64,000 bases of DNA. Source: Clavaria fumosa. Taxonomy: Eukaryota; Basidiomycota; Agaricomycetes; Agaricales; Clavariaceae. The stretch covers positions 62,001 through 126,000 of the forward strand of contig OX637795.1 in NCBI GenBank assembly GCA_951802425.1, written 5' to 3'. Position numbers and translations under genes: made by a program. Below, piece after piece: positions 9,835 through 61,683 of this stretch; position 1 is the stretch's first letter; every line of letters begins with the position of its first letter. The notes under the pieces were generated by a model. That model did not search any database, was not told the origin of the DNA, and saw only the letters and a program-made list of their open reading frames with translations.

Positions 9835-9898
9835 TGTCAGCAGAAATTCAAGAATATTAAAAACTAAATGCACATACTGTTATCCATAATGATCTCCT

Positions 9899-10330
9899 CT
9901 ACTGCTCCCCATCAGCACAGTATATTTTCAAATATGAAGGTTCTGAGAAGTCAGGCAGTCTCGTTTCGTAGCAGTCTCGCTTCCGGATATGTGGATAATG
10001 AGCATTGGGCATGGAGAAGAAGTCGAAAACTGCGAGCCCTGGGTAGGAACATGGTATCAATGTGCGCTCAATGGAAAAGACTGGCTGGTGTGGCAACCAT
10101 CAGTGGAATAAAGATCTTCCAGATTTGCCGAGTCTGGCACTGGTGACAAGTTTGGACAAACCACTTTACGTCTTGATCCAACACCGGCCACCAGAACCGA
10201 TTTAAGATACATGTCTGGATAATGTAAACACCTTTGTGGCCAAGTGAATTGTGTGCCTCAGTGATAATTGCAAGCCGTTTGTAGTCCGGAGGTACTACCT
10301 GGTGGCATCTGTTAGGTCAGCGACACCATA
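9899..10330 (-). pseudogene. Truncated integrase N-terminus of the Gypsy element
   Basis: One minus frame reads CHQCQTRQIWKIFIP, the CxxC half of the HHCC zinc finger, then an HIDTM segment that matches the first catalytic Asp of the integrase core. Stops interrupt the frame and similarity ends at about 9899, before the remaining catalytic residues. The region 10150-10400 should hold the histidine half but is too degraded to place. Confidence 0.65.
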
Positions 10331-19885: not shown

Positions 19886-20345
19886 TTGCCTGTCCCCATA
19901 CCATGTGTGAATGCTATGCTGGAAATTGCAGGGGCAACCACTCCTTCAACTTCCCGCACACCGTATGTGAATGATGTGCGGGAAGTTGAGGGAGTGGTCA
20001 TTCCTGCAATTTCCCGCACACCATACGTGAATGGTGTGCGGGTAATTGGAGGAGCGACCACTCCTTCGACTTCCCGCACACCATTCACGCATGATATGCG
20101 GGAAGTTGAAGGAGTGGTCGCTCCGTCAACTTCCCGCACACCATTCACGTATGGTGTGCGGGAAACCTGCAGAATGACCACGCCTTAAACTTCCTGCACA
20201 TCATGTGTGAATGGTGTGCAGGAAATTGCAGGAGTGATGACTCCTTCAACTCCCACATACCATTCATAGATTGTGTGTGGGAAATTGCATGAGTGACTGC
20301 TCCTTTAACTTCCTGCACACCATGTATGAATGGTATGCATTAATC
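19886..20345. repeat. 60-bp palindromic satellite, about 7 copies
   Basis: Units of about 60 bp contain two nested palindromes: TTCCCGCACACCAT...ATGGTGTGCGGGAA and GGAGTGGTCGCTCC. Because the period is 20 codons and the unit is palindromic, both strands stay open and give nearly the same repeated peptide (SRTPYVNGVREVEGV-like). The outermost units are more diverged. Confidence 0.88.
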
Positions 20346-21500: not shown

Positions 21501-23439
21501 AGTCTGGTTTTGTCTGGTTCATATGGGACTTTGCTGAACCTCAGACCAGACTTTGGTCTGGTTCTGGCAATTGTATGAAATTTGAACTGGACTTGGGTCC
21601 AGTTTAGGTAATTGTATGAACTTTGAACTGGACTTCATCAAACCTGATAATCAGTCTGGTTCAGGGCTCAGCAACCTCTGAACCTTGAACCAAACCTAAC
21701 TACATGCCAATTTCTTTTACTGTGTATGCACAAAATGGATTTGTAGTGCAACAAAGACCAGAGGCAAGAGCTGGTTGTGCTGCTTCATGTCAGTCAGAGA
21801 TCTGTTTGAAAATGTAATGCCTGTTGTGTCCACATGAGTTGCAGAAGTTCCAGCTCAGGAATGTCAGCCTCACAGCAGGGTTGCATACATTCTAGGCTGA
21901 AGCCATTGCTTTTGCAGGCATGTGGCATGCCAACAGCTTTAACACAGGGTTGTCTGCACTTGTGTTGGGATGCACCTCCATCTTGCCTCCCCACAGCACT
22001 GTGAACAACTTGGATGGGTCTGCAGATGCTGGGTCAGACAGCAACCCCAGCTGAAACTTCCAGTTTGTCATCACCACTGACACAACAATGCTAGGGATGA
22101 TTGTCAACAGTGCCAGACTGGTGAGCAGAGACAGGGAAAAAGAAAAGTAGAGTCAGCTTGACAGTCACTTAGACTGAAATCCAGTTCAGGGAAAGTCCAA
22201 TTTGAACCATGGTTCTGAACTGAACTGTGGCATCAGTACTGTAATTTTGCAATAATCATGAAGCCTTCAACTGGTCTGAGTTGACTGTGATGCATATAGC
22301 TTTATACAAGTCATAGCTCATTTGATCAGTCTGTGGAAAGTGATTAGTGATTAGCATAAATTTATGCTAATCACACACTCATAGGCATAATCTCATGAAA
22401 GGTGACAAGGCCAAACAGCTAATGAACCAGGCAGACATGTCTCACCTTTAGGAGATTATCCTTGTCCTGAAGGAGTATTACATCAGGAATGTATAATATT
22501 ATTCAACACCCTTGTTATGTTCATTGTCTTAACAGTCTTTGTCATCCAAATCAATTCTGAGTAACATACCTGCATTGTTAACCATGTAACCTATTAAGTG
22601 TTACTGCTAACTCAGTGTGTGACTGCTAAGTCATTTCTATAATTAACATATCTGTAAGCTAGTGTAATGACCCCATCCAATCACATGATCATTATCCCCA
22701 CTCTGGACTCTGGACTCTGAACCAACTTCAGCTTTGTCCAATCTGCTCCATCACAACTCTGCATTCCCACTCTGAGTCTCCTTTGGACTCTGTTCTTTGG
22801 ACTTATGAACATCATTCTAGAATGTTCTCCAACATTCCTCTTGTCTGGTGACCAATGGGAGGATGCCCATGACCCATGGGGATGTCTTATTGTTGTTTTT
22901 TATACTCTAGAATTGTGCACAGGCACTGGTGGTGCAACTCCTCCTTGTTATTTGATTTGCATTATGTTTCAGAGTTGTGCCTGTATTCCTGCCTTTGAAG
23001 TATAAGAACACTCATGTATTTCCATGGTCTCCAGTTCAAATATTATCATCTCTTGTTCCTAAATGTTTCTAAGCTCCATTCTCATCATCCGCAACATCCT
23101 TGATGTTGTCCAATCAACTCCAACTGACTCTGATGAACTCTGGAGCTTCAGCTCTGACTTCCAACCTTGCCCTGGGCATTGTGTCTACTTGGTAAATATG
23201 GACACATATATGTGGTGGTACAACACACATTGAGGCCTTCCTCAGTCTCAGAGTCTAACTGGACTCCACTCTACTTCTCCATTTTGGCTAACCTTTGTGT
23301 GCTAACCTGTTACCATGACAGTTAGCCAGGTACCTCTCTAAGTGGACTTTGCTCACTTTGACCAATCTGGAATGCCAGGTCTGTCATTGTAAGGCTTCTA
23401 CTAATCATGAGTGGAAGCAATGATGTGTACTTTCTAACC
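21501..23439. other. No gene recognised; repeat-like intergenic DNA
   Basis: 21480-21700 has CTGGTTC/TTGAACTGGACT repeats. No frame over 75 codons has a recognisable domain. 22680-23075 resembles 18580-18950 and may be an old LTR. 23080-23430 holds only short frames. Confidence 0.4.
22347..22374. repeat. Perfect 28-bp palindrome GTGATTAGCATAAA + reverse complement
   Basis: The palindrome is perfect with no loop and is followed by CACACTCATAG. The GTGATTAG/CTAATCAC core equals the complementary pair found in introns of the genes at 24893-30398 and 32620-36960, although no gene is evident here. It may be an orphan copy of the intron-type hairpin. Confidence 0.8.
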
Positions 23440-24892: not shown

Positions 24893-27800
24893 TCAGGAAT
24901 TTGCATTTGCAGCTTCCAGCCACTCTGGGTCATCACTCATGGTTGCAAGAGCTTCTAGAAGTGCTGCATCATCTGGTGTATTGGTCCCATCTGCAGTTTG
25001 GCTTCTCCTCTGTCTCTTGGTCACAGGGCCATGCTCATTAGCTAATGTGTGATTGTCATTGACACCATATGCCTGACCATCATAACGAGTTTACTCACTT
25101 GGTGTCTCCATAGCTTTCCCTTTGTTAATTGCAGAAACTAGCCCATCTTGGAATTGGGAGTGTGTTTCTGGTGCTAAGATTGCAGTCAGTATTTGTAGTC
25201 TATTGCCCAGGAAATTGTGATGTAAACAAACCCCTGCTTCCAACCCCTTGTTCCACCTTGCCCCTACTTCGCACTAAATGAAGAGATCAGCAGGATACTT
25301 TGTTCCCAGAAGCACAAATTGACCTCTCTTCTTACTCTTGTTTACTCTATGTTTCAGAGTAATTAGACATATAAATACAGGGATGTAATGCTGTCTTTAC
25401 TCACTCCTGTCCTCTTGACTTGGTCCTCTTGGCAGCCTGAACCAAGCGCTGGATCCAGACTTCTTGGAAAAATCTGTGGTCATCTGGACACTTCTCAGCA
25501 ACCATGTAGAGGAATTCAACCAGGAGCTTCAAGCGTTTCCCCTGCTCTGTAAAGAAGAGCTTCATTTCCTCCTTGCCATTACCAGGATTAGTTGCAGTCT
25601 GAAATGCAATTTCCAAGGCCCTGTTGGCAGCTGGATAGATGCCCTCCTCTTCAACCCACTCTGCATCTAGTTCAAAGATGTAGGAGGATTCCACTGGATC
25701 CAAGGGCACCTCTGCTGGCAAATTTTCCAGCAGATCTGAAAGGAATTGAATTTCCCCAAAGATTTCAGCAGTCCTGTCCACAACAAGTGGCTTATCTGAA
25801 ATAAACAGTGAAGTCAATTCAGGAAATTTTAAAAGTTGGGATAAGCTGACTAGTACCTCTGGAAACTTCCACCTCAGCCATTTCTGAACCAGATTCCATC
25901 TCAACCATTTCTGTGTCTGTCATAATCCTTGTTAGGTCAATGGTACTTGCATAAATCATAGTTGAACATACCTCTGGAAACTTCCACCTCAGCCATTTCT
26001 GAACCAGATTCCATCTCAACCATTTCTGTGTCTGTCATAATCCTTGTTAGGTCAATGGTACTTGCATAAATCATAGTTGAACATACCTTGGTCAGTATCA
26101 AACTTGTTGATGGCAGCTGTCTCCAGGGCAGTGTTGGACTGCTTTTTCAGAGCTTTAGTGGCAACATTTCTCTTCTTGACAGGTAGGCCAGACAGTAGGC
26201 CAGAAATTTCAGCCCTGTGTTTTATCTGCTTCTCCTGTAGTGCCAGGACCTTTTGCTGATGTTTTTGAATTGATGACATCTTGATGCTACCAACATCCAC
26301 CTCTGATGTTTCCTTAGCAGCATAGTGATCCCTGATCATTCCAGCATCAGCAGTCTCAGCAGATGTTGCCCAGGCCTTCCTTATGTGTTCTGCCAATTCC
26401 TCTGCTGGAACATCTTCATCAGTGGCACATTCTGTTGGATTGTCATGGTGACGTCGGTCTAACTCCATTTTCTTGAAGAGTGCCTGTAGTATGCCACTTA
26501 GTGTTGCCCATATAATGTATAATGGAACCTTAGGATTTACCTGAAACAGTCCTTTTGCCGCTTTCTCCACAGCAGGAATAAAAACCCACTCATTGTCAAT
26601 GGCTTCACCTGTCTGAATGGTTCCAATACCTGGCTGCTGTAAAATCTTCATGATTTTGGCCACTGCCCCTGTCATCTTCTCCTCTACCCCAATCTGATGG
26701 AAAAGTTGGTTGGCTTTGATAGTCTGTGCTCTCCTAGCCAATGCCATATCTTTAACCTCCGGGATCTCTTCACCAGTATGTGGATCAGTGATGGCAGGGA
26801 CCTTGATGTGTAGCAGTCCATCCCAGTATGTCCAGTTCTGAAGGCATACATAACTGCAGAGATGTTTCAAGAGCTTATTACGAAGATGCACAATGGATGA
26901 GTCTGCCATCCACTTGACACGATCAGGCATATCCGCAATTGTTTGGAGAACACAACCAGCCATCATGCGAAGATCTGTTCGCTTGGAGTTAGTCTTGTGG
27001 CACCAGTTAAAGGATGTTTGTGCAAGGGCTGTCTTGAGACTGTCTAGATCAAGGCAAGTGTCCAATATCCAGTGATCTTGAGGGAGGGGAGGAGCATGGG
27101 AAGGGTCCACATTTATCAAGCCATTTGTTTGCTTAGCAATCTTGGCCTCAGCTGCTACCCATTCTTTGAGCCATTCCTGCACTTCCCTGCCTTGCTCACT
27201 GTTTGTACCATGGGGCCATGCATTAGAATGAACATATCCACCCTCTTGCTTCATCTTATTGCACAGCATCCTAACCCCAGCATTCTCCTGGAAGAGGAAG
27301 GTTATAATCTGTCATTGTGTTAGCAGGATACAACAGAGGAGCATTCATGATACTGACATTTCCCAAAAGATAGTTGACATCCTTTTCATTAATCTTTGAC
27401 TTCTTGATGAAATGGACTGTAACCCCATCCCAATGATCTTGCCAAGAGGTGTTTGACCTTTGGTTGAAAGGGATGTAGGGAAAAGGTTCAACCCAAGTGG
27501 CAATCTATCACAAAAAGGTTGGCATTGGTGCTGTGCAATCAAGGATAGTGGAATAACAACAATCACCTCTGCTAGTGCAAGTTCATGCTGCTCAAACTTT
27601 TCTTGGATGTGAATCATAAAGCCAAGACCAAGCAAAGGCAACTTGAGCTTGAGTCCAACAAAGGCTTCCTGGACCTTTGCTGCCTTTATCCATTTGAGTT
27701 TGTTGACAAAGTCATCCTGGATTTCTGCATCTACTGATCCCTCATCTGGATCACCAAATCGTTTGAATGCTGCCTCAGTTTTAATGATGACCTCATCAAA

Positions 27801-30398
27801 GTACTCTTCAAAGGCAATATTCCACCTGCCACCTATTTGGCCCAATTCATCACAGAGCTGGGAGAGATGTCTGGTATAGATGTCATCCCACTCCTCAAGA
27901 AGGAACCTATGAATCCAAGGGATGTGGCCATGGCCACTTGCAACAATTCGCAGGAGAGTTTGAATTGCCCCCTGTGTGGCTCTGTGTTGCTGGTCATGTA
28001 GAGCATCCCCTTCTAGTCCAGAGAGTGAGTCTGAAATTGCCTGATAGTCTGGCATTGAGATTGGTGTTGTCAGGTACTCCAGGACTAGGAGCTGGTGATT
28101 CCAAATATGCACTACAAGCTATAATTATTCATTCAAGCAAGTGAGCATGCACAAATAAATAGATTGGAAAAAAACTCACAGAGAGTGAAACCCGGTGCAG
28201 TTGGTTGAAAAATCGTGGATTGAGGACATGTGCCATGCCCTCAAAGTACTTGTGCTGGAATAGGTGCACCAAGAGGGCCAGGATTGTTGGGTTGTTCATT
28301 ATCCGACGAATATCCATTCTGCTGGTAGCATAGCTCCCAGATAATCCCTGGAGAATGCCATCCCAGGAGTACTTTGGTTTGCCCTGGAGAGACTGTATGA
28401 GGTGCACCAATTGAGAGGCAGGGTCATCTATCCTTTGAATGGTCTTGCGATTTTCTGCCAACTTGTGTTTGACAATGTCACCCAATGGTGAGGCTTCCAG
28501 TGCCCCTGTGTTTAATGGTATTAGGGTTCAACAAGGTCTTCATGATGGAGTAAGTTGGTCTACACCTTTGTCCCAAAAGCCCACCAGCCACACACAATGC
28601 TCCAAAGCTTCCTCATTCAACTCCAGATCTTCCCTAATTTTCATCTCATCTTTTTTCTTTTCTACTGCTTCCTTCAAGGATGCCACAAGTTTACCACGTT
28701 TGTTGAGTTCATTCTTGAATGCCTTGGTGATAAGCCAAGCATGACGATGTTGGCCTGCAAGCATCTCTAGCACTACTTCCTCCTCCTTAACCCCAGGTGC
28801 ACACTGGAGATGACAGAAGTTCTTCAGCCGGAATGATTTCATTGAACTGAGTTTGAATTTTTCCTTTTCAACAAGGCAGAACATGGCATTGGGTATTGAA
28901 TCATTTTGCAGACCATCTTGATCTACATATTTGTCAAGTGCAGAGACTTGGGCCTTGGAAATAGGTCGAGCTCCATCCCACTTTATTTGTGCCTTTGTGG
29001 TGGCAAAATTGATGTATGCATAGCCAAGGAGAGTGTCACTCTTGACACTCTCAGCCATTGTTGCCAGGTTTGTCCTGAGTTCACAGTCCCATGCAACAGG
29101 CTATCTTAGTCTGTCAGACAACAGTCTCTAATATTAATAGTAAACATACCCGAATTTCCTGTGATGGGCTGTACACCATAGGGCTTTGGTCCTAGAATAT
29201 ATTATTGATTTGGTGTATCACACAGAAGACTGATCACATACTCCACTTAGATCACTTTCTTCCTCTGGATCAGGGTTTGTCTGCAAGAAATAAGCTGAGG
29301 GCTCAGATTGAATTATGCAAACCGCACACCTTGTTTGAATCACTTTGTGCTCCTGGAACTCCTTTCTGTGCAAAATTAGAATTGTAATTAGCATGAATCT
29401 AGAATAATCACATACCCTGCTTGACTCCCCTGTGCTTGCCACTTGTTTTCCCTGTTGCGAATGAGAATTATGATTAGCATAAGTTTTCACTAGTCACGTA
29501 CCTTGCCAGACACCTTTGGCTCATTTCCCTGCACCAAATGAGACATGTGTTTATCAGAACTTCACACTAATCACATACCTTGCTTGGCCTTGATTTATCT
29601 CCCTAAGAAAATGGGAATTCTGCTTATCATAAATTTGTGCTAATCACATACCTTGCCAGGCCCTCTTGGAAGAGCAGGTTCATCCCCCTGTGGCAAATGG
29701 GAAATATGTTTATCAGAAATTTACACTAATCACATACCTTGCCAGACACCCTTGGCTCATTACCCTGTGCCAAATGAGAAATGTGTTTATCAGAAATTTA
29801 CACTAATCACATACCTTTCCTGGTCTGCTGGGCAGAGCTGGTTCATCTCCCTGTGCCAAATGAAAAATGTGTTTATCAGAAATTTACACTAATCACATAC
29901 CTTGCCAGACACCCTTGGTTCATTTCCCTGTGCCAAATGAAAAATGTGTTTATCATAAATCTACTCTAATCACATACCTTGCCAGACACCCTTGGCTCAC
30001 TTCCCTGTGCCAAATGAGAAAGGTGTTTATCAGAAATTTACACTAATCACATACCTTGCCAGACACCTTTGGCTCATTTCCCTGTGCCAAATGAGAAATG
30101 TGTTTATCAGAACTTCACACTAATCACATACCTTGCTTGGCCTTGATTTATCTCCCTATGAAAATGGGAATTCTGTTTATCATAAATTTACACTAATCAC
30201 ATACCTTGCCAGGCCCTCTTGGAAGAGCAGGTTCATCCCCCTGTGGCAAATGAGAAATGTGTTTATCATAAATTTACACTAATCACATACTTGGTTTGAT
30301 TCTCCCTGACCTGTTTCTCTTTTCTCCTGTGCCAAGTGAGAATGTGATTAGCATGTGTGAACACTAATCAGCCAGTCACTTACTGATTTGTCAGACAT
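24893..30398 (-). CDS. ParB-like motif protein, paralogue B, with micro-exon N-terminus
   Basis: ATG at 30398 (exon 1 is 15 nt). Exons 2-16 are 24-42 nt each and all introns among them have phase 0. Exon 17 (from about 29109) opens the main domain with LLGYAYIN and, at about residue 280 (28733-28756), AGQHRHAW, the GxHRxxA box seen in paralogue A; a Lys/Glu coiled coil follows. Later exons reach 27350, then 27269-26087, two duplicated 60-nt exons (25857-26031), 25856-25404, and exons ending at TGA 24893-24895. The order and many segments match paralogue A, so both belong to one large unrecognised family. A TAG at 25274-25276 interrupts an otherwise open exon just before conserved-looking sequence, so the product may end early or the gene may be a recent pseudogene. 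Function is unknown. Confidence 0.72.
25857..26086 (-). repeat. Exact tandem duplication of one exon plus one intron (115 bp)
   Basis: Copies at 25857-25971 and 25972-26086 appear identical. Each has a 60-nt exon (20 codons, Met/Glu/Val/Ser-rich) and a 55-nt intron with a GTATGT donor, CCTAACAAG branch region and GACAG acceptor. Phase 1 is kept on both sides, so the duplication inserts exactly 20 residues. Confidence 0.9.
29502..30240 (-). repeat. Array of ten micro-exons and near-identical introns
   Basis: Exons: 30205-30240, 30132-30155, 30055-30081, 29978-30004, 29901-29927, 29815-29850, 29738-29764, 29652-29687, 29579-29602, 29502-29528 (36, 24, 27, 27, 27, 36, 27, 36, 24, 27 nt). The introns between them are 49-50 nt, nearly identical, start GTATGTGATTAG and end in CAG or TAG. 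The peptides vary on G-[DN]-[EK]-P-x-V-S-G-K, GDEPALPRGPGK and GDKSRPSK. The first three exons recur in order as the last three, which is a higher-order duplication. Neighbouring exons 2 and 13-16 have related sizes but unrelated peptides. Confidence 0.92.
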
Positions 30399-32619: not shown

Positions 32620-35600
32620 ATGCCCCCCTCTCAGTGTCCTAGCTGCATGAACACTTTTTCCAGTGCTCAGATGAAGTACCATCTGCGCAACTGCAGGTCT
32701 ATAGCAGTACTCCATCTCCCTCAAGGCAAAGTTACACTTCAAAGAGATAGTAGTGGCATGTACATGTGCCAATGCACACACAAAGATTGCCCAAGACCCT
32801 TTGACAAGATTGAAACCTTGAGAAAACATATTCAAAGAGCCAAGTCCACATGGAAGGAGCAATTAGGCACATCACCAGAGCAGGACAATGTGAGTAGATA
32901 AATTGATTCATGGAGCTTCTTACCTTGCTAAGATTATCCAGGTTGGAGTGGGCTCCACAGCAAACACTGTTAGTTCTAGCATTGACCATACTGTTCAGGA
33001 AAAGGTAAGGAGTTTTCAACCGTTTGTATTTGCTTCCCACTGAACACTGAGAAATGCCAACCCAGGGGCAAATGGGATTAGTGTACATGTCTGTTAATCA
33101 CAGTGAAAGAAGCAGAGTGGGAGAGGAGTTGGTCAGATCCCAAAGGCAGGCAATCAAGGTGTGTTTGACCAGTCATATATGCATACTTCTCTTTTGACCT
33201 GAAGTGAATGATGATAGCCTTGTAGTGCATCAGATGATGATATTTGTGTGAAGGTAGGAGACATCAGTAAATGCTGCATGCCTTCTGCTGAATACAGCAA
33301 ACTAGGGGAAAATTGGATTAACACACAAATACCTTAATCCCAATGCAAGAGAGAGCAGAACAGGAGACGATTTAAAGACACAGGGGCCAGCAACAAAGGT
33401 ATTGTCAAACTTTTCAATGCAGAGGCATGTGGTGTATAACTGATGTGAATGACAGTCTTGTGACACATCAGATCAAGATGATGATTACCCTTCGACTTCA
33501 CCACAGCTCACACGACCAAGCAGTTCTCTTAGCATGATGAGCATGGCAAGTAAGAAGGCAGATGGTCTCTCTGAATTGGATGATGCAATCAACAACATGA
33601 AGCCTTTTTCATTGGATTCTGGATCCCATCATGGTTCTGCTGTCACTGGTACTGTGGAGAAAATCAGACATGAGAAGCAGTCTGCTCATGTGTGTGATAC
33701 TGCTTCTGCCATTAACAACTAGATATTAATTGTGAAAGGGTAGTCTTGGCAACTGGAATACCCAGAAGGGCTTTCCCCCTTTGGAATTGTTGTCAACACT
33801 CTCCTCCACTGCTTCTGCTGTCAGGCCTGTGGCATCGCCCTATCATCTGCACAGGTGGAGGGTCACTTAAAGACATCTCATCAATCATCCAAAATGCACA
33901 TGGACAAAAAGCTCTTGGCACAGATGGTTGAACAATATGACATCTTTGATGTTCTTCCAAGTCATGACACAGCAAATGTCATTGATGCCTTTGAAGGGAT
34001 CAAGATATTGGATGGCATACAGTGCATCCATTGCACAAAAGTAGCATGCAAACCTGAGTCCATGCGAAGGCACCACTTTGAACAGCATAAAGAGAAACCA
34101 AGACCAAATGTATGGCCTCAATGCAAAGTTCAAAGGCTGAACCTTGTGGCAGGCCATGATAGAGTTTTATTTGAAGTCAAGCCACTGGGGAAACAGCACC
34201 TGATATCAGATGATGAAATGGTGGAGCAGCTGAAGTCTGAGGCTGCAGCTTTCACAAAAGAAGGACATCATCATCCACACAACTCTCGTAGCATCAGCCC
34301 TTGGCTCCTTACCACAAGGTGGCATGAACATGTGCAGGGACATTCAACTGATGAACTTGTGGGTCTCATTGCATTGCCCAAAGAGGAGGAGTTTCCAGGC
34401 CTTAGATCTTTGGTGCTCAAGTACATGAAAGATGCAACAAAGCTCATCAGGAGCACAGCAGAGCTCCCCTTGCAGCGCCTCAATACACCTGATCCAATTA
34501 AGAGGTGAGTGTGCTTAACATTCCAGAACATTAATCACACCCTTCATACTAATTGATACATACAGTGGTATCAACAATACCCCATTCCATGAACACCAAC
34601 AGGCTGCAACATTGAATGCCTACATAATACCCCCACTCTGCCAACTTGCCATGCTTCTCAGGCCCCATGATATGTACAAAATGCCACTCCCAAAGACTCT
34701 TAAAGACTTGATTGAGCAACTAAGATTTTGCCTGCCAGCCTCAGGGGAGATGGATGGACTGGAAGAGCTCCATCAAGTGTTTTTGGGCTTGTGGATGCAG
34801 GAATGGCTACCGACTCTTGACAACACCTTACCCTGTCCAACTATTCGAGCTCTGGCCCTGATGACCTTGCAGAGAGATGGCAGCTTTGCACATCCCAAGT
34901 ATGTGACTGGCCACATAGCCAAATGGGAGCGGGCTATCCAGCTTGTCTGCCTCAGGCAGATGAAGTTCCTCAGCAATACAAAGTATTCTGGTAATGATAC
35001 TAGGGCATGTGATGAGGTTGAGCAATGGTTCATAGAGAAGGTGGAGTCTCCATTTAACAGCCTTCGGTCTCTCCAACATCGAGCTAGTGCCATCTCTTAT
35101 GCCACCATGTCACTCCCTCATTTCTGGTGGACTGACCGCAACAACTGGACATCCTTGCTCTACAAAGGGACCCCTGTTCATATGGATCAAATCAGGGCCA
35201 TGTTTTCTAGGATGGAGGACACATTGGTAGATGTTTGGGAGAATAGGGTTTTATGTGGTCTCAACATTAGGATCAACTATGGTGATATTGCTGAAGACTT
35301 GACCAACAAGAATGTTGGCTACTGTTTCCTTCAAGATGAACGCAATCCATGCTTTGAAAATCAGGATCATTTGATGACAGCTCTGCTGGCAAATCCAGTA
35401 CAAAAGGCAGCATTTACTATTAAGGATCAAGTAACTGGTTCTTTGACCTGGAACAGACACAAGCTTCGTACCTGGTTAATGGACTATGCTGAATTCAATG
35501 GAATCCAGATGACAAGGGCAGAGATGGGGAGTGGAGCACCAAGCCGAGGAACAGAGCTGACAGCCATGAACTACAGGAATACTGTGACCAGGGATGGAAA

Positions 35601-36831
35601 CCTACATGCTTTTGGTGCCCATATTGCTATTGTTCGGCAATATCACAAGCCAGGAGCCCTGTCTGGGGTGGATAAGCTTATCCCACACAGCCTAGATGCA
35701 GTTACTTCTGACCTCATGGTACAAGATCTGGCTCTTGCTCGGCCCTTTGCTCAAATGGCAGTCAACATATGCTTTCCTCATAAAGCTGAGCTATGGGAGC
35801 TGTATCACAACAGGCTCTTTGTTGACTACCTGAGGGAGTTCACATCAGAAAAGCTAAGCCAGATCATGGGAGATTTTGCACTCCCCATTCTTGGTGTCAA
35901 GTTTGGAATCAATCCATGGCGTCATATCTATGCTGCATTCAGACGCAAGCTATGTGTATTTGCCACAGATATGCTGGAAGAGGATGGGCAGATGGACAGC
36001 ATTGGAGCTCTGCAATTTGGACATTCACGCAGCACAGATCTTCGCATTTATGGCATCAGCAGTGATTCTTTAATTGGTGCAGAAGACATCCTGCCTCAGT
36101 ATTTGGACTGCAGCACTCACTGGCAGACAGAAGTACATATGGTCCCTGGTAAGATTGGAATTGCCTCATTCTACACCATGCTCATACAATGTTTGTACTG
36201 ACAGGTGGGCTTCAACTACCATATCAACAGGCAAGGTGTAGCAGTTTCCAAGAAAAACTTGAAAATGGCATCATAAGACAGGAAATGAGGGCCTGGGGAA
36301 AGGAAGAAGGCTTTGCAGACTTGGTTGCAAGGAAACTCAATGCAACTATCAGCAAAACATTCCAAGAAGCCATTTCCCAAACCATTCAGGGTGCTGAAAG
36401 CAGAATGATCCAAGGTGTAAAGGTAGCATCATTGCAAGGCACCTCTTTCCAAGTCAGAAGGTATGTATGCCTACATGTCTGCTTCATAAGAATCTGATAC
36501 AATGTACCTATCTCTTACCCATAGATTGTCACCAATCAAACCCAGACTTGAAGTTAAGGAAGGCGATGAGTGAGTTTCTGTCATTGTCAAGAGAAAATGG
36601 ACAGTCAAATTGCTCATTTTATACATCCAGTTCACTAGATGCACCATGGCATACTCATGATGGAGAAAATATTTTACCCCTTGTGGACATGTAAGCAATA
36701 TAAAATAATAGTCACTCATAACTACAATGTGATTAACATTCAAGTATGTTAATCACAAGTGAACCACACAGCCACTCTCCTACACTCCAGAAGATTCATG
36801 CTGAGATTGTGGCTTCAACCAGAGCAGATAT
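32620..36831 (+). CDS. OrsD-type zinc-finger protein with tyrosine-recombinase-like segment
   Basis: In-phase exons: 32620-32889, 32942-33004, 33116-33158, 33364-33398, 33507-33689, 33744-34504, 34566-36148, 36205-36460, 36525-36569, 36631-36690. The N-terminus has CPSCMNTF...H...C and CQCTHKDC...H zinc-finger patterns. Exon 6 has CCQACG...H...H and CIHCTKVAC...RRHHFEQH, the OrsD (PF12013-like) double finger. Exon 7 holds APSRGTELTAMNY (about 35535-35573) and QFGHSRSTDLRIYG (36013-36054), which recall the Arg box and the GH...T...Y box of tyrosine recombinases. In related fungal proteins such regions precede a RecQ-like helicase, and the helicase frame begins only a few hundred bases on, so this is probably the first half of one gene. 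Splicing after 36690 could not be resolved. Confidence 0.68.
33005..33506 (+). repeat. Duplicated exon-intron unit of about 240 bp
   Basis: The intron/exon/intron stretch around exon 33116-33158 is repeated with divergence around exon 33364-33398. Matching parts include GGGATTAGTG.../GGATTAACAC... stems, AGCAG acceptors, GCCAGCAA/GGCAGGCAATCAA exon ends and the following intron (TGAATGA-GATAG/CAGTCTTGTG...CATCAGAT). Frame is kept through both copies in the model proposed. Confidence 0.6.
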
Positions 36832-36970
36832 GTAAGCAACACCTGTCACTCATCATCACTATGTGATTAACACTCAAGTATGTTAATCACAAGTGAACTG
36901 AATGGTTCCTCTTCCACACACCTAATGCCACATGCTGAGAAGGCTGTCTCAACCAAGGTGAAAATGTAAG
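36691..36970 (+). repeat. Repeated intron units with 28-nt stem-loops
   Basis: Three successive units start AT-GTAAGCAA. The first two contain GTGATTAACA and TGTTAATCAC arms (36729-36756 and 36863-36890; loop centre TCAAGT or similar), followed by AAGTGAAC and a short exon with CATGCTGAG and CTTCAACCA or CTCAACCAA. The third, at 36966, has a decayed stem. Exact exon borders are uncertain because the second acceptor is not conserved. Confidence 0.7.
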
Positions 36971-37006
36971 CAACATTACACAATTATCAACCTACTTCCA
37001 GTGTGA

Positions 37007-38962
37007 TTGACATTCATATATAAAAAACCACAAAGCTCACAAACAAGGGCTTCTATGGTGCCCAACAATGATGTAGAGATGAAAGCTCTCAGCATGCTCC
37101 AAAAAGTGCTCTGTAATGCAGGGGCCACATGGTCCTGCCCAGAGCAGAGGGACATACTTGTTGAGGTGTTGGCTTTAAAAAGGGATGTTCTTGGCATCAT
37201 GCGAACTGGGTCAGGAAAATCAATGATCATGGTCTTGCCCACTCTTCTGGAAAAGGGTCAAATTACGATTGGAATCCTCCCTCTCAATTCATTGATATCT
37301 GACTATGTTCGCAAACTCACCATCATGGGGATTGGCTTTGAGCTCTACACTGGTGGGACCCACATTGATGGACATAAAAACCTGGTCATACTGTCAGCAG
37401 ATCGTGCAAGGACTACAATGTACCAAGAGGCACTGGTGGAGCTCCACACACGTAAATCTGTGGTCAGAACAGTGTTTGATGAAGGCCACTTTGCATTCAC
37501 AGCCAATGATTTTCGACAGTCCCTTCAAGACCTGTATGCACTCAGGAGCTTTCCCATGCAGCTCGTAGTGCTCTCAGGAACCATTCCTCTGCAGAGTCAA
37601 GATGTCATTTGTGACTCCTTTGGGTTGCACAACCCATTTATCTCTCGCACTACCACCCATCGTCCAGAAATCCAGTACATTCTTGAAGCTTCACAACCAT
37701 CCTCACAGCACATCATACAACAATTGAAGCAAGTTCTACATCATGAAATGGAACACTTTGGATCCAAAGATCGTGCGCTTATATTTGCTCCATTCCTAGA
37801 CGAAGGCAAGGCTATGGCAGTGGAGCTTGGATGTGACTTCTATCATGGCATTGACAAAAACAACATGCATGCACCAGACCTTCGAGAACAATTCCATAAG
37901 GACTGGCTGGATGGGAAAAACAAGATCATGGTGTGCACATCGGCATTTGGTGCAGGAAATGACTATCCACATGTTCGTGTGGTCATTCATGCAGGATCCC
38001 CTCGATCTATGATAGAGTTCACTCAGGAGAAAGGACGTGCAGGACGGGATGGAAGGCCAGCCAAATCCATCATCATTCCAAAGGCCACCCATCATCCTCC
38101 ACCTGGCCTACCCAATGGCCAGATTGACCACAAGGGCCATTTGGCCATGTACAAACTTCTCTATCGAACAGGACATAGGGATTGCATTCGGTTTGCAACA
38201 ACCAACTTCTGTGATGCCAAGGGGACATTTTGTCATGAAGACCCCAAGGCAGAGCTATGCAGCGGCTGCTTAAAAAAGACAGGCTTAACAAGAGGAGAAG
38301 CAAGCACAAGGATCCCTTCACAAAGGATTTCCAAACCATCACCATGCATAACCACTCAGCACTCTGCCATGCAACACAGCTTTTCCACTGGGGCCAATCC
38401 CCTGAAACGACAGCTTCTGGAAGCATTTGGACATGCCCATGCAGAAGGGAGCAGAAGAGTGGTGCAAAGGCAGTTGGAAGCAGCTGAGTATGCCAAGCCA
38501 ATCCATCAAGCACTCAGCAGCTACCTTGGTGGATGTGCACATTGTTCAGCAGTGGTGCCCAGAACAGAAACAAGCCAGTCCCACATATTGAAGGACTGCA
38601 ATTTGTTCCAGAGGACTTTTCACAAGTATCGACAATTCAAAAGTGAACTCAAGTACAATGACAATCATGAAGCTATCTGCTACTACTGCCATGTTCCCCA
38701 GTGTGATGGGGAACTGCATAGAACCTTTGTGAGGGGTTCTGCAGATTCATGTGACTTCCCAGACATTGTTGTCCCCCTTGTGCATGCAGTGTTGACTACT
38801 CCAAGTTTGATCACACCTGCTACAAAGGCCTTTGGACAAGATTGGCAAGATTCCATGTCTGCATTGGTTTGGATTAATGCAAAACCTATGCCTGGGCATA
38901 AGAGCAATTTGATTGCATTGTTCATGTGGTTCTACCAATATCAGTTGACACAACAAAAGTAG
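37007..38962 (+). CDS. RecQ-like superfamily 2 DNA helicase
   Basis: Open frame of about 650 codons; ATG at 37055 is the best internal start if it is a separate gene, otherwise this is the last exon of the preceding locus. Motifs in order: CPEQRD (motif 0-like), IMRTGSGKSM (Walker A), VFDEGH (motif II, DEGH instead of DEAH), VVLSGTIP (motif III), VCTSAFGAGNDYP (motif V) and QEKGRAGRDG (motif VI). A C...C..C cluster after it (FCDAKGTFC...LCSGC) matches the RecQ zinc-binding segment, and the C-terminus has a further CAHC...H...C and CYYC pattern. Such helicases unwind DNA 3' to 5'; relatives with OrsD fingers are multicopy in fungi and some are subtelomeric. The frame looks intact. Confidence 0.85.
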   Translation: MTFIYKKPQSSQTRASMVPNNDVEMKALSMLQKVLCNAGATWSCPEQRDILVEVLALKRDVLGIMRTGSGKSMIMVLPTLLEKGQITIGILPLNSLISDYVRKLTIMGIGFELYTGGTHIDGHKNLVILSADRARTTMYQEALVELHTRKSVVRTVFDEGHFAFTANDFRQSLQDLYALRSFPMQLVVLSGTIPLQSQDVICDSFGLHNPFISRTTTHRPEIQYILEASQPSSQHIIQQLKQVLHHEMEHFGSKDRALIFAPFLDEGKAMAVELGCDFYHGIDKNNMHAPDLREQFHKDWLDGKNKIMVCTSAFGAGNDYPHVRVVIHAGSPRSMIEFTQEKGRAGRDGRPAKSIIIPKATHHPPPGLPNGQIDHKGHLAMYKLLYRTGHRDCIRFATTNFCDAKGTFCHEDPKAELCSGCLKKTGLTRGEASTRIPSQRISKPSPCITTQHSAMQHSFSTGANPLKRQLLEAFGHAHAEGSRRVVQRQLEAAEYAKPIHQALSSYLGGCAHCSAVVPRTETSQSHILKDCNLFQRTFHKYRQFKSELKYNDNHEAICYYCHVPQCDGELHRTFVRGSADSCDFPDIVVPLVHAVLTTPSLITPATKAFGQDWQDSMSALVWINAKPMPGHKSNLIALFMWFYQYQLTQQK

Positions 38963-40515: not shown

Positions 40516-40837
40516 GTGCCACTGCTAAGTACAAACTTGTGAGGACTGATGAGTGTGATTTAGTGTTTAGTGTAAGTTGACATTAATCACACTCTCATAG
40601 GGGGATTACTAAATAAGGAAGGTGGGACAAGGCGGGACAAGGTGGGACATTGGGATGATTCCCTTATCCCAAGTTTTAGATCAGTTAGAGAACTAGTAAT
40701 GCTGGGTAGATATCAGGCCATGTCCCACCTTGTCCCACCTTGTCCCACCTTGTCCCACCTTGTCCCACCTTCCTTATTTGGAATGGTAGATACATGCATA
40801 CAAAATTTCAAAAGACTAGCTTCAGTGTTAGATGATA

Positions 40838-41061
40838 TGTAAGGCCATAGGCCTTCTGTCTGTACTTGATTATATAATGTACATACCTTATTTAGTTTTC
40901 CTAGCATAGTTGCTTGGCTATGCTTATGTCAGCAGCCCTCTGGAAGGCTGCTTGCCTATATATACTGTGTTGTGACTGTACACAGAGGAGAGATCCCTCT
41001 ACAATAGAACTACTACTCAATAGAACTACTACTCAATAAACTGTTGAGTCCAGTTCTTACA
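40838..41061 (+). mobile_element. LTR-like segment of the array unit (first copy)
   Basis: Begins TGTAAGGCCATAGG and ends CAGTTCTTACA, so it has TG...CA ends. It contains a CTATATATAC box and a CTCAATAAACTG-type sequence and matches 20557-20742 and 60054-60255. The same segment recurs in every 585-bp unit. No polypurine tract or primer site could be fixed, so LTR status is inferred. Confidence 0.55.
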
Positions 41062-41195
41062 TGATAGCACAAGATTTGCATAGGATCCTACTTGATCAAG
41101 GTGCCATCACTAAGTACAAACTTGTGAGGACTGATGAGTGTGATTTAGTGTTTAGTGTAAGTTGACATTAATCACACTCTCATAGGGGGATTACT

Positions 41196-41364
41196 AAATA
41201 AGGAAGGTGGGACAAGGCGGGACAAGGTGGGACATTGGGATGATTCCTTTATCCCAAGTTTTAGATCAGTTAGAGAACTAGTAATGCTGGGTAGATATCA
41301 GGCCATGTCCCACCTTGTCCCACCTTGTCCCACCTTGTCCCACCTTGTCCCACCTTCCTTATTT
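41196..41364. repeat. Hairpin within each array unit (unit 2 shown)
   Basis: AAATAAGGAAGGTGGGACAA at the left and its reverse complement at the right (ending 41364) are extended by GTGGGACAAGG and TGTCCCACCT repeats, so arms of about 35-50 bp can pair. A second small stem, TTGGGAT/ATCCCAA, lies in the loop. Confidence 0.85.
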
Positions 41365-44300
41365 GGAATGGTAGATACATGCATACAAAATTTCAAAAGA
41401 CTAGCTTCAGTGTTAGATGATATGTAAGGCCATAGGCCTTCTGTCTGTACTTGATTATATAATGTACATACCTTATTTAGTTTTCCTAGCATAGTTGCTT
41501 GGCTATGCTTATGTCAGCAGCCCTCTGGAAGGCTGCTTGCCTATATATACTGTGTTGTGACTGTACACAGAGGAGAGATCCCTCTACAATAGAACTACTA
41601 CTCAATAGAACTACTACTCAATAAACTGTTGAGTCCAGTTCTTACATGATAGCACAAGATTTGCATAGGATCCTACTTGATCAAGGTGCCATCACTAAGT
41701 ACAAACTTGTGAGGACTGATGAGTGTGATTTAGTGTTTAGTGTAAGTTGACATTAATCACACTCTCATAGGGGGATTACTAAATAAGGAAGGTGGGACAA
41801 GGCGGGACAAGGTGGGACATTGGGATGATTCCTTTATCCCAAGTTTTAGATCAGTTAGAGAACTAGTAATGCTGGGTAGATATCAGGCCATGTCCCACCT
41901 TGTCCCACCTTGTCCCACCTTGTCCCACCTTGTCCCACCTTCCTTATTTGGAATGGTAGATACATGCATACAAAATTTCAAAAGACTAGCTTCAGTGTTA
42001 GATGATATGTAAGGCCATAGGCCTTCTGTCTGTACTTGATTATATAATGTACATACCTTATTTAGTTTTCCTAGCATAGTTGCTTGGCTATGCTTATGTC
42101 AGCAGCCCTCTGGAAGGCTGCTTGCCTATATATACTGTGTTGTGACTGTACACAGAGGAGAGATCCCTCTACAATAGAACTACTACTCAATAGAACTACT
42201 ACTCAATAAACTGTTGAGTCCAGTTCTTACATGATAGCACAAGATTTGCATAGGATCCTACTTGATCAAGGTGCCATCACTAAGTACAAACTTGTGAGGA
42301 CTGATGAGTGTGATTTAGTGTTTAGTGTAAGTTGACATTAATCACACTCTCATAGGGGGATTACTAAATAAGGAAGGTGGGACAAGGCGGGACAAGGTGG
42401 GACATTGGGATGATTCCTTTATCCCAAGTTTTAGATCAGTTAGAGAACTAGTAATGCTGGGTAGATATCAGGCCATGTCCCACCTTGTCCCACCTTGTCC
42501 CACCTTGTCCCACCTTGTCCCACCTTCCTTATTTGGAATGGTAGATACATGCATACAAAATTTCAAAAGACTAGCTTCAGTGTTAGATGATATGTAAGGC
42601 CATAGGCCTTCTGTCTGTACTTGATTATATAATGTACATACCTTATTTAGTTTTCCTAGCATAGTTGCTTGGCTATGCTTATGTCAGCAGCCCTCTGGAA
42701 GGCTGCTTGCCTATATATACTGTGTTGTGACTGTACACAGAGGAGAGATCCCTCTACAATAGAACTACTACTCAATAGAACTACTACTCAATAAACTGTT
42801 GAGTCCAGTTCTTACATGATAGCACAAGATTTGCATAGGATCCTACTTGATCAAGGTGCCATCACTAAGTACAAACTTGTGAGGACTGATGAGTGTGATT
42901 TAGTGTTTAGTGTAAGTTGACATTAATCACACTCTCATAGGGGGATTACTAAATAAGGAAGGTGGGACAAGGCGGGACAAGGTGGGACATTGGGATGATT
43001 CCTTTATCCCAAGTTTTAGATCAGTTAGAGAACTAGTAATGCTGGGTAGATATCAGGCCATGTCCCACCTTGTCCCACCTTGTCCCACCTTGTCCCACCT
43101 TGTCCCACCTTCCTTATTTGGAATGGTAGATACATGCATACAAAATTTCAAAAGACTAGCTTCAGTGTTAGATGATATGTAAGGCCATAGGCCTTCTGTC
43201 TGTACTTGATTATATAATGTACATACCTTATTTAGTTTTCCTAGCATAGTTGCTTGGCTATGCTTATGTCAGCAGCCCTCTGGAAGGCTGCTTGCCTATA
43301 TATACTGTGTTGTGACTGTACACAGAGGAGAGATCCCTCTACAATAGAACTACTACTCAATAGAACTACTACTCAATAAACTGTTGAGTCCAGTTCTTAC
43401 ATGATAGCACAAGATTTGCATAGGATCCTACTTGATCAAGGTGCCATCACTAAGTACAAACTTGTGAGGACTGATGAGTGTGATTTAGTGTTTAGTGTAA
43501 GTTGACATTAATCACACTCTCATAGGGGGATTACTAAATAAGGAAGGTGGGACAAGGCGGGACAAGGTGGGACATTGGGATGATTCCTTTATCCCAAGTT
43601 TTAGATCAGTTAGAGAACTAGTAATGCTGGGTAGATATCAGGCCATGTCCCACCTTGTCCCACCTTGTCCCACCTTGTCCCACCTTGTCCCACCTTCCTT
43701 ATTTGGAATGGTAGATACATGCATACAAAATTTCAAAAGACTAGCTTCAGTGTTAGATGATATGTAAGGCCATAGGCCTTCTGTCTGTACTTGATTATAT
43801 AATGTACATACCTTATTTAGTTTTCCTAGCATAGTTGCTTGGCTATGCTTATGTCAGCAGCCCTCTGGAAGGCTGCTTGCCTATATATACTGTGTTGTGA
43901 CTGTACACAGAGGAGAGATCCCTCTACAATAGAACTACTACTCAATAGAACTACTACTCAATAAACTGTTGAGTCCAGTTCTTACATGATAGCACAAGAT
44001 TTGCATAGGATCCTACTTGATCAAGGTGCCATCACTAAGTACAAACTTGTGAGGACTGATGAGTGTGATTTAGTGTTTAGTGTAAGTTGACATTAATCAC
44101 ACTCTCATAGGGGGATTACTAAATAAGGAAGGTGGGACAAGGCGGGACAAGGTGGGACATTGGGATGATTCCTTTATCCCAAGTTTTAGATCAGTTAGAG
44201 AACTAGTAATGCTGGGTAGATATCAGGCCATGTCCCACCTTGTCCCACCTTGTCCCACCTTGTCCCACCTTGTCCCACCTTCCTTATTTGGAATGGTAGA

Positions 44301-47300
44301 TACATGCATACAAAATTTCAAAAGACTAGCTTCAGTGTTAGATGATATGTAAGGCCATAGGCCTTCTGTCTGTACTTGATTATATAATGTACATACCTTA
44401 TTTAGTTTTCCTAGCATAGTTGCTTGGCTATGCTTATGTCAGCAGCCCTCTGGAAGGCTGCTTGCCTATATATACTGTGTTGTGACTGTACACAGAGGAG
44501 AGATCCCTCTACAATAGAACTACTACTCAATAGAACTACTACTCAATAAACTGTTGAGTCCAGTTCTTACATGATAGCACAAGATTTGCATAGGATCCTA
44601 CTTGATCAAGGTGCCATCACTAAGTACAAACTTGTGAGGACTGATGAGTGTGATTTAGTGTTTAGTGTAAGTTGACATTAATCACACTCTCATAGGGGGA
44701 TTACTAAATAAGGAAGGTGGGACAAGGCGGGACAAGGTGGGACATTGGGATGATTCCTTTATCCCAAGTTTTAGATCAGTTAGAGAACTAGTAATGCTGG
44801 GTAGATATCAGGCCATGTCCCACCTTGTCCCACCTTGTCCCACCTTGTCCCACCTTGTCCCACCTTCCTTATTTGGAATGGTAGATACATGCATACAAAA
44901 TTTCAAAAGACTAGCTTCAGTGTTAGATGATATGTAAGGCCATAGGCCTTCTGTCTGTACTTGATTATATAATGTACATACCTTATTTAGTTTTCCTAGC
45001 ATAGTTGCTTGGCTATGCTTATGTCAGCAGCCCTCTGGAAGGCTGCTTGCCTATATATACTGTGTTGTGACTGTACACAGAGGAGAGATCCCTCTACAAT
45101 AGAACTACTACTCAATAGAACTACTACTCAATAAACTGTTGAGTCCAGTTCTTACATGATAGCACAAGATTTGCATAGGATCCTACTTGATCAAGGTGCC
45201 ATCACTAAGTACAAACTTGTGAGGACTGATGAGTGTGATTTAGTGTTTAGTGTAAGTTGACATTAATCACACTCTCATAGGGGGATTACTAAATAAGGAA
45301 GGTGGGACAAGGCGGGACAAGGTGGGACATTGGGATGATTCCTTTATCCCAAGTTTTAGATCAGTTAGAGAACTAGTAATGCTGGGTAGATATCAGGCCA
45401 TGTCCCACCTTGTCCCACCTTGTCCCACCTTGTCCCACCTTGTCCCACCTTCCTTATTTGGAATGGTAGATACATGCATACAAAATTTCAAAAGACTAGC
45501 TTCAGTGTTAGATGATATGTAAGGCCATAGGCCTTCTGTCTGTACTTGATTATATAATGTACATACCTTATTTAGTTTTCCTAGCATAGTTGCTTGGCTA
45601 TGCTTATGTCAGCAGCCCTCTGGAAGGCTGCTTGCCTATATATACTGTGTTGTGACTGTACACAGAGGAGAGATCCCTCTACAATAGAACTACTACTCAA
45701 TAGAACTACTACTCAATAAACTGTTGAGTCCAGTTCTTACATGATAGCACAAGATTTGCATAGGATCCTACTTGATCAAGGTGCCATCACTAAGTACAAA
45801 CTTGTGAGGACTGATGAGTGTGATTTAGTGTTTAGTGTAAGTTGACATTAATCACACTCTCATAGGGGGATTACTAAATAAGGAAGGTGGGACAAGGCGG
45901 GACAAGGTGGGACATTGGGATGATTCCTTTATCCCAAGTTTTAGATCAGTTAGAGAACTAGTAATGCTGGGTAGATATCAGGCCATGTCCCACCTTGTCC
46001 CACCTTGTCCCACCTTGTCCCACCTTGTCCCACCTTCCTTATTTGGAATGGTAGATACATGCATACAAAATTTCAAAAGACTAGCTTCAGTGTTAGATGA
46101 TATGTAAGGCCATAGGCCTTCTGTCTGTACTTGATTATATAATGTACATACCTTATTTAGTTTTCCTAGCATAGTTGCTTGGCTATGCTTATGTCAGCAG
46201 CCCTCTGGAAGGCTGCTTGCCTATATATACTGTGTTGTGACTGTACACAGAGGAGAGATCCCTCTACAATAGAACTACTACTCAATAGAACTACTACTCA
46301 ATAAACTGTTGAGTCCAGTTCTTACATGATAGCACAAGATTTGCATAGGATCCTACTTGATCAAGGTGCCATCACTAAGTACAAACTTGTGAGGACTGAT
46401 GAGTGTGATTTAGTGTTTAGTGTAAGTTGACATTAATCACACTCTCATAGGGGGATTACTAAATAAGGAAGGTGGGACAAGGCGGGACAAGGTGGGACAT
46501 TGGGATGATTCCTTTATCCCAAGTTTTAGATCAGTTAGAGAACTAGTAATGCTGGGTAGATATCAGGCCATGTCCCACCTTGTCCCACCTTGTCCCACCT
46601 TGTCCCACCTTGTCCCACCTTCCTTATTTGGAATGGTAGATACATGCATACAAAATTTCAAAAGACTAGCTTCAGTGTTAGATGATATGTAAGGCCATAG
46701 GCCTTCTGTCTGTACTTGATTATATAATGTACATACCTTATTTAGTTTTCCTAGCATAGTTGCTTGGCTATGCTTATGTCAGCAGCCCTCTGGAAGGCTG
46801 CTTGCCTATATATACTGTGTTGTGACTGTACACAGAGGAGAGATCCCTCTACAATAGAACTACTACTCAATAGAACTACTACTCAATAAACTGTTGAGTC
46901 CAGTTCTTACATGATAGCACAAGATTTGCATAGGATCCTACTTGATCAAGGTGCCATCACTAAGTACAAACTTGTGAGGACTGATGAGTGTGATTTAGTG
47001 TTTAGTGTAAGTTGACATTAATCACACTCTCATAGGGGGATTACTAAATAAGGAAGGTGGGACAAGGCGGGACAAGGTGGGACATTGGGATGATTCCTTT
47101 ATCCCAAGTTTTAGATCAGTTAGAGAACTAGTAATGCTGGGTAGATATCAGGCCATGTCCCACCTTGTCCCACCTTGTCCCACCTTGTCCCACCTTGTCC
47201 CACCTTCCTTATTTGGAATGGTAGATACATGCATACAAAATTTCAAAAGACTAGCTTCAGTGTTAGATGATATGTAAGGCCATAGGCCTTCTGTCTGTAC

Positions 47301-61416: not shown

Positions 61417-61683
61417 TGACAACAATACTAAGATGAGGGGAAAAGAGTACAAAAAAGGAAAAGTGAAAGTATATATACTGATTGCTTCGGCACTTGCTGG
61501 CATTCCCATGCTTGGACCCTTGGATCATGTGACATGCCAAGGCACAGGTCAGGTGACTTTGGGGATTATGTAATCTGACCCTCAGCCACAGGTCATGTGA
61601 CCTTCCAACAAGCCTCCCCAGTTTCTCTACAACTCCTCTTTGGGATGGCTTAGGTAAGTGATCCTAACATCACCCCCCTCTTA
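61417..61683 (-). mobile_element. Possible LTR with adjacent polypurine tract, minus strand
   Basis: Reading on the minus strand, AAGAGGGGGGTGA (61671-61683) is followed by TGTTAGGATCAC at 61669, as a polypurine tract and LTR start would be. A GTATATATAC box lies at 61469-61478. A TG...CA unit ending at about 61417 would be 253 bp. No partner LTR or target duplication was found, so it may be a solo LTR. Confidence 0.45.

Follow-up and report, generated by a model that had tools for sequence, protein, structure and literature searches.

A candidate tandem array of micro-exon and intron units in a gene family of Clavaria fumosa

Introduction

Genes built from tandem units of an exon and its own intron are already known from a worm and a ciliate. 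The polymorphic mucin genes of Schistosoma mansoni (SmPoMuc) are described as a multigene family whose members recombine, and in which a 27-bp exon and an intron of more than 94% identity form tandem units that encode 9-residue repeats: there are 1 to ~20 units per gene, and one truncated gene is without repeats (PMC2576457). The LRR genes of Tetrahymena, which number in the thousands, are described as tandem 90-bp exon/intron units of uniform phase 2, with 1–51 exons; their youngest copies are subtelomeric or pericentromeric, and unequal crossing over has been proposed for them (PMC6564038).

Schistosome micro-exon genes (MEGs) are reported to have 10–20 very short exons, mostly multiples of three in length, and to encode secreted proteins (PMC10526429). 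In recent paralogs from human segmental duplications, minisatellite unit numbers differ and exon structure changes, with the frame mostly kept in coding cases (PMC2812944). In accounts of intron gain, the tandem duplication of an AGGT-containing segment is described as a source of new splice signals.

Here we analyse a locus of Clavaria fumosa within a stretch of 64,000 nucleotides (the window), which corresponds to positions 62001-126000 of contig C2 in a 48.8-Mb assembly of 17 contigs. An earlier note had seen an array of micro-exons in this DNA and knew of no standard feature class for it. That last claim is not borne out: the SmPoMuc genes, as described in PMC2576457, likewise have tandem exon and intron units and copies that differ in unit number, and the Tetrahymena LRR genes, as described in PMC6564038, likewise have tandem exon/intron units of uniform phase and variable number. 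In searches of an open-access library we recognised no fungal precedent for tandem arrays of exon and intron units, and we regard the array presented here as belonging to a known kind, of which it is a likely fungal and much more compact form. As predicted from the DNA, its units are probably spliced micro-exons whose number changes by recombination inside near-identical introns.

Layout of the array and the predicted gene

Read on the minus strand, positions 30240..29502 contain ten phase-0 blocks of 24, 27 or 36 nt, split by GT...AG stretches of 49–50 nt, in agreement with the earlier note. They form part of a predicted gene with the following features:

25401..30398, minus strand: predicted gene, 24 exons, 23 GT-AG introns, 1256 aa, one terminal stop
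30384..30398, minus strand: exon 1, 15 nt, start codon, MSDKS
30291..30326, minus strand: exon 2, 36 nt, EKRETGQGESNQ, left edge of the array
30205..30240, minus strand: array exon 1 (gene exon 3), 36 nt, GDEPALPRGPGK, then a 49-nt intron; absent from the copy on contig C6
30132..30155, minus strand: array exon 2 (gene exon 4), 24 nt, GDKSRPSK, then a 50-nt intron
30055..30081, minus strand: array exon 3 (gene exon 5), 27 nt, GNEPKVSGK, then a 50-nt intron
29978..30004, minus strand: array exon 4 (gene exon 6), 27 nt, GSEPRVSGK, then a 50-nt intron
29901..29927, minus strand: array exon 5 (gene exon 7), 27 nt, GNEPRVSGK, then a 50-nt intron
29815..29850, minus strand: array exon 6 (gene exon 8), 36 nt, GDEPALPSRPGK, then a 50-nt intron
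29738..29764, minus strand: array exon 7 (gene exon 9), 27 nt, GNEPRVSGK, then a 50-nt intron
29652..29687, minus strand: array exon 8 (gene exon 10), 36 nt, GDEPALPRGPGK, then a 49-nt intron
29579..29602, minus strand: array exon 9 (gene exon 11), 24 nt, GDKSRPSK, then a 50-nt intron
29502..29528, minus strand: array exon 10 (gene exon 12), 27 nt, GNEPKVSGK, then a 50-nt intron with the variant donor GTACGTGACTAG
29150..29451, minus strand: exons 13-16 (36, 36, 39 and 42 nt), with 49-50-nt phase-0 introns between them, right edge of the array
26087..29100, minus strand: body exons 17-21 (535, 326, 552, 147 and 1201 nt) of the predicted gene model
25401..25795, minus strand: last exon (24) of the gene model, with the stop codon

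The array exons, which are gene exons 3-12, thus measure 36, 24, 27, 27, 27, 36, 27, 36, 24 and 27 nt in order. All of these lengths are divisible by three, also in a parse that made no demand on frame; the introns flanking the array exons are all in phase 0, and each array exon is followed by an intron of 49 or 50 nt. Three exon lengths alternate in this way within units of 73–86 bp. The count of ten given earlier holds for the array units and leaves uncounted the further phase-0 micro-exons that surround them (exons 1, 2 and 13-16, 15–42 nt).

The near-identical intron that each unit was said to carry is found with one exception: nine of the ten array introns start with exactly GTATGTGATTAG, and the last one departs from it with GTACGTGACTAG. 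The intron before the first unit has the exact 12-mer as well, which brings the exact matches in the window to 10. With up to 2 mismatches the window contains 27 matches to this 12-mer, against a mean of 7.0 in shuffled sequence, and no shuffle out of 100 gave as many. The ten array introns have a mean pairwise identity of 84%, and the ten array exons, which are of three length types, one of 68%; GC content is 0.33 in the introns and 0.55 in the exons. The repeat of a three-exon block is confirmed: over 186 nt, inner introns included, the block 36-24-27 of exons 3-5 is 95.7% identical to its second copy in exons 10-12. Nine of the 23 introns of the gene lack a strict CTRAY branch motif, including three of the ten that follow array exons (introns 3, 6 and 10).

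The array peptides follow the patterns GDEPALP..PGK, GDKSRPSK and GxEPxVSGK. Every one of the ten array exons in the window ends in a K codon before GT and begins with GGN after AG, so that K|G marks the nine borders within the array as well as the one with exon 13. On the predicted splice sites, the border residues of these repeat peptides are thus spelled by the splice consensus itself.

When the predicted exons are joined, they give 3771 nt, that is 1256 codons followed by the sole in-frame stop. Without splicing, the three frames of the stretch between the start codon and the end of intron 16 contain 31, 33 and 28 stops. Introns 1-15 were set by the donor motif and the nearest acceptor; for introns 17-23 and for the acceptor of intron 16, the choice was one that keeps the frame open. 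Across the whole model the introns measure 49–70 nt; introns 1-16 are in phase 0, and later ones are in phase 0 or 1.

In this spliced model the array builds the N-terminus of the predicted protein, as had been claimed. Residues 1-164 come wholly from predicted micro-exons (15–42 nt), and the array supplies residues 18-114 (97 residues). The micro-exon-encoded part has a GRAVY of -1.56, and 78% of it is A, E, G, K, P, Q, R or S. The best 11-residue hydropathy window that starts within the first 30 residues reaches -1.08, so the start is not hydrophobic and gives no sign of a signal peptide. The predicted product is a hydrophilic, probably disordered N-terminal tail on an orphan body of 1092 residues. 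No Pfam family was found in five scanned ORFs of the array gene. The 419-aa ORF in its largest exon gave no relatives at E 0.001 among 5064 protein-database candidates and no PDB match, and its predicted structure has a mean pLDDT of only 39; residues 165-1250 of the spliced protein gave no relatives at E 0.001 among 7994 candidates scored. Rfam had zero matches in the window.

Divergent from the array gene, on the plus strand at window positions 33744-38959, lie an ORF with an OrsD domain and a RecQ-like ORF with DEAD and Helicase_C domains; in a Pfam scan of the window OrsD was above the cut-off and a fungal zinc-finger below it. The helicase ORF (37007-38959) has 180 protein relatives, and among the 120 listed one is named as fungal, from Daedalea quercina, with 44% identity over 53% of the query. 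Since this neighbour finds such a relative, the protein database that was searched contains fungal proteins to some extent. The array gene is likely a fungal gene. We take the region of the RecQ-like helicase to resemble subtelomeric telomere-linked helicases.

The layout raises the question of whether the array serves alternative splicing. All ten array exons in the window are in phase 0, divisible by three and free of stops, so every combination of them stays open: any subset would keep the frame, and skipping could yield many protein lengths. Short introns with near-identical donors, however, are usually removed one at a time through intron definition, and we consider a splicing device of this kind unlikely, even though SmPoMuc genes are described as having multiple splice variants besides their repeat arrays (PMC2576457).

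Copies of the gene in the assembly

A 101-bp probe from beside the array found five places in the assembly, on contigs C2 (the window copy), C11, C6, C9 and C7, and a probe from a body exon found the same five; as the product of probe searches, five is a lower bound. These copies contain 10, 10, 9, 4 and 1 array units, respectively. The first parse took in-frame donors only, and a repeat without any demand on frame returned identical unit counts. In that second parse, 34 of 34 array exons across the five copies are 24, 27 or 36 nt long, which supports the earlier claim that the frame is kept whatever the number of units. Introns 1-5 of C9 measure 58, 40, 50, 39 and 61 nt, while the array exons of this copy stay divisible by three. 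Exons that are not divisible by three occur in the flanks, namely exon 4 of C7 (35 nt) and, in C6, the exon after an altered intron 14.

The copies differ in how intact they are. C2 is open over 1256 codons, and C11 is without a stop in exons 1-16 or in 1142 aligned later codons. In C6 there is a stop inside an array exon and the match to the gene ends early; in C7 the match also ends early, and one base is missing at the border of a flanking exon; C9 has stops, frame breaks and a retroelement-like insert. This insert (6142-9988 of the extracted C9 sequence) interrupts the gene copy and has direct repeats of ~300 bp that are similar to window positions 61379-61701; it looks like an LTR retroelement. 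The C6, C7 and C9 copies look broken, and their unit numbers may reflect decay without function.

All five copies lie ~85–152 kb from a contig end. At positions 1-300, contigs C2 and C11 begin with an irregular telomere-like repeat, mostly of CTAACCTAA (TTAGGTTAG) units rather than the usual TTAGGG. The DNA between the OrsD and helicase ORFs, at 36.0–36.9 kb of the window, has matches next to the copies on C11, C6 and C7. Because flanking DNA is common to the copies, they are likely to be subtelomeric segmental duplications.

The window contains other repeats. About 15 copies of a 585-bp unit (one spacing is 565), with short TGTCCCACCT / AAGGTGGGAC repeats inside, occupy positions 40619-49455, and a 60-bp tandem repeat whose unit has inverted copies (GGTGTGCGGGAA... 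/ ...TTCCCGCACACC) occupies 19908-20338. A perfect 28-bp palindrome, GTGATTAGCATAAATTTATGCTAATCAC, lies at 22347-22374 inside a possible intron of another gene. It has one other perfect copy in the genome, on C11, and a near match in an array intron of C9; with two perfect sites and one near match (at most 3 mismatches) in the genome, we rejected it as a dispersed parent of the introns.

Gain and loss of units

The copies on C11, C6, C9 (only up to exon 15) and C7 were aligned as mosaics onto the C2 copy. C11 needs zero jumps. One jump suffices for C6: it takes out exactly one unit, and its joint can be placed anywhere along 31 identical bases with which an intron begins. All of the five jumps that C9 requires fall in introns, and the first intron of C9 is a hybrid between intron 1 and one of the array introns; this copy may descend from an array that never resembled that of C2. 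The single jump of C7 slides over 3 intron bases and 2 exon bases. Six of these seven large jumps thus lie wholly within introns, and the seventh slides over an intron end; the count leaves aside four steps of 2–3 nt and does not list single inserted bases. For joints placed at random, seven of seven in introns has p 0.04 and at least six of seven p 0.22: because introns make up 64% of the region, joint placement alone is weak evidence.

Further evidence comes from the units themselves. Among the ten units of C2, exon identity tracks the 22 nt at the 3' end of the upstream intron (Mantel r 0.46, p 0.016) and shows no link to the first 26 nt of that intron (r 0.03) or to the halves of the downstream intron (r 0.03 and 0.11). 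In a set of 14 units from C2 and C9 the correlation of the exon with the 3' half of the upstream intron is r 0.44 (p 0.0002), and the other half-introns have p > 0.16; four tests were made in each of the two sets. As the exon is linked only to the last 22 nt of its upstream intron, the acceptor half would travel with the exon. In C2 the donor side of the introns is more uniform than the acceptor side (91% vs 81%), and with C9 added the values are 80% vs 81%. Exchange therefore seems to fall inside introns, to judge from these comparisons. The claim that expansion proceeds through exon and intron units, neutral to the frame, is supported by the five copy counts, and also by a second, fresh-looking duplication at the 3' end of the gene:

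25972..26086, minus strand: 3' unit copy 1, a 55-nt intron (26086..26032) and the 60-nt exon 22 (26031..25972)
25857..25971, minus strand: 3' unit copy 2, a 55-nt intron (25971..25917) and the 60-nt exon 23 (25916..25857)

The two copies of this unit in C2 are 115 bp each and 100% identical. The unit is single in C11 and in C9, where it is 97% identical, and a gain in C2 is the parsimonious reading of the sequences. The duplication looks fresh, and the 115-bp repeat may be an assembly error. Its joint is ambiguous over 120 nt, that is 115 + 5, the five bases being AGGTA, which is common to the donors before and after the unit. The join runs from donor to donor, and therefore one whole intron and exon were copied, by construction. 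This suggests how the N-terminal array began.

Selection and alternative readings

Over 948 codons of the body, with 3 stop codons and 23 gapped codons of C9 set aside, C2 and C9 differ at 48 of 619 synonymous sites and at 81 of 2225 nonsynonymous sites (dS 0.082, dN 0.037, dN/dS 0.46; Fisher p 4e-5). Introns of these copies diverge by 0.042, hardly more than the body dN, and it is the contrast with dS that gives the sign of constraint. C11 shows 0 differences from C2 over 622 intron bases, and its 1142 aligned codons contain 2 nonsynonymous differences and no synonymous one. Numbers of differences are also few elsewhere, and no constraint appears in them (synonymous/nonsynonymous: 1/8 in C6, 3/10 in C7, 1/6 in the near-array exons of C9, 0/2 in C11). 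From these codon counts, selection probably acted on the body during part of its past. The constraint that can be read on the predicted array exons themselves is one of conserved lengths only.

These values bear on another reading, that of a decaying gene whose array is non-coding, a subtelomeric minisatellite: a repeat of ~77 bp would turn over neutrally, and its phase would be a relic of one ancestral exon-intron pair. Three of the five copies look broken, one of them with a stop in an array exon, no constraint is seen on the near-array exons, body dN is close to intron divergence, and every copy sits at the distance from a contig end given above. We nevertheless hold this reading to be quite improbable: C2 and C11 have remained open over the lengths reported above, the body dN/dS is below one half with a low p value, and changes of length fall in introns, whereas each of the 34 array exons, those of the broken C9 included, has kept a length divisible by three.

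It is very unlikely that the whole array is one long intron between exons 2 and 13 whose units never reach the mRNA. The frame would survive such splicing, as the end of exon 2 and the start of exon 13 are both in phase 0, but an intron of ~840 nt would be far above the 49–70 nt found elsewhere in the gene model, and nothing would then account for the splice signals and the divisible-by-three length found at each unit.

Least probable of all, and rejected here, is that mobile, introner-like introns were repeatedly inserted into an older, intron-free coding repeat: near-identical introns within one genome are the introner hallmark, and intron 1 carries an inverted GATTAG...CTAATC motif, but the exon goes together with the acceptor half of its upstream intron, the 3' duplication copied an intron and an exon as one piece, and the exact intron pattern, which misses divergent introns, was found genome-wide in 23 of 23 rows in the array gene family and not as the same intron at many unrelated genes.

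Discussion

The reading that we prefer, of spliced micro-exon units that are gained and lost within introns, places this gene beside SmPoMuc: the repeat unit is one whole symmetric exon with its predicted intron, and unit number differs between the gene copies. As described in PMC2576457, SmPoMuc units are of ~1 kb, with intron microsatellites and one exon length, whereas the unit here, with its three exon lengths, is more than tenfold shorter. The SmPoMuc proteins of that description carry a signal peptide, in contrast to the hydrophilic predicted protein start of the array gene (PMC2576457). The Tetrahymena LRR genes, in the description of PMC6564038, have exons of exactly 90 bp in phase 2 that encode an LRR domain, and young T. 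thermophila LRR genes have introns of ~257 bp; the exons here are of 24, 27 or 36 nt in phase 0, with array introns of 49–50 nt.

Other systems are more distant. MEG introns are given as 0.1–5 kb, in contrast to the introns of 49–70 nt here, which are near-identical within the array, and the MEG genes of the account drawn on are not described as a tandem array of near-identical exon and intron units (PMC10526429). The repeats of the human paralogs, found inside exons or at the borders of exons and introns, have units with a mean length of 30 bp, and these do not comprise a whole exon and intron (PMC2812944). SP7 effectors of AM fungi have repeats and a conserved intron before the first repeat, but an intron of its own for each repeat is not described in the account consulted (PMC11333574). 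In AGGT duplication, as it is generally described, a new intron arises, whereas in the 115-bp case an existing intron and exon were copied from donor to donor. The present array stands apart through its phase 0 and its three alternating exon lengths; the gene also has a second such site, and its joints are readable at base level.

A possible mechanism joins the two sites. New units would be seeded when two splice donors that share AGGTA recombine and so copy one whole intron and exon; the array would then grow and shrink through unequal exchange within introns, and the array introns would be removed by splicing. With each unit gained or lost, the protein would become longer or shorter by 8, 9 or 12 amino acids, and frame and splice sites would stay undisturbed. 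Tentatively, and with somewhat less than even confidence, we suggest that splice donors act as the breakage-and-join points that copy intron and exon cassettes, that introns multiply and delete these cassettes, and that the K|G border is dictated by the splice consensus (AAG|GT...AG|GG). If this is true, the gene lengthens its protein in frame with splice signals that are themselves the recombination signals, and one gene would display both steps at two sites, of which one is newborn.

Coding minisatellites are bound to the frame, and an intron in each unit would free most of the repeat as a substrate for recombination while the exon stays intact. If the array is spliced, a single genome offers a natural series of 10, 10, 9, 4 and 1 units together with a fresh unit, and a direct test of whether introns promote in-frame exon duplication, which is a long-standing question of exon shuffling. 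At this scale of 73–86 bp, whole units are easily sequenced, counted and rebuilt. Gene finders may miss or misjoin such genes.
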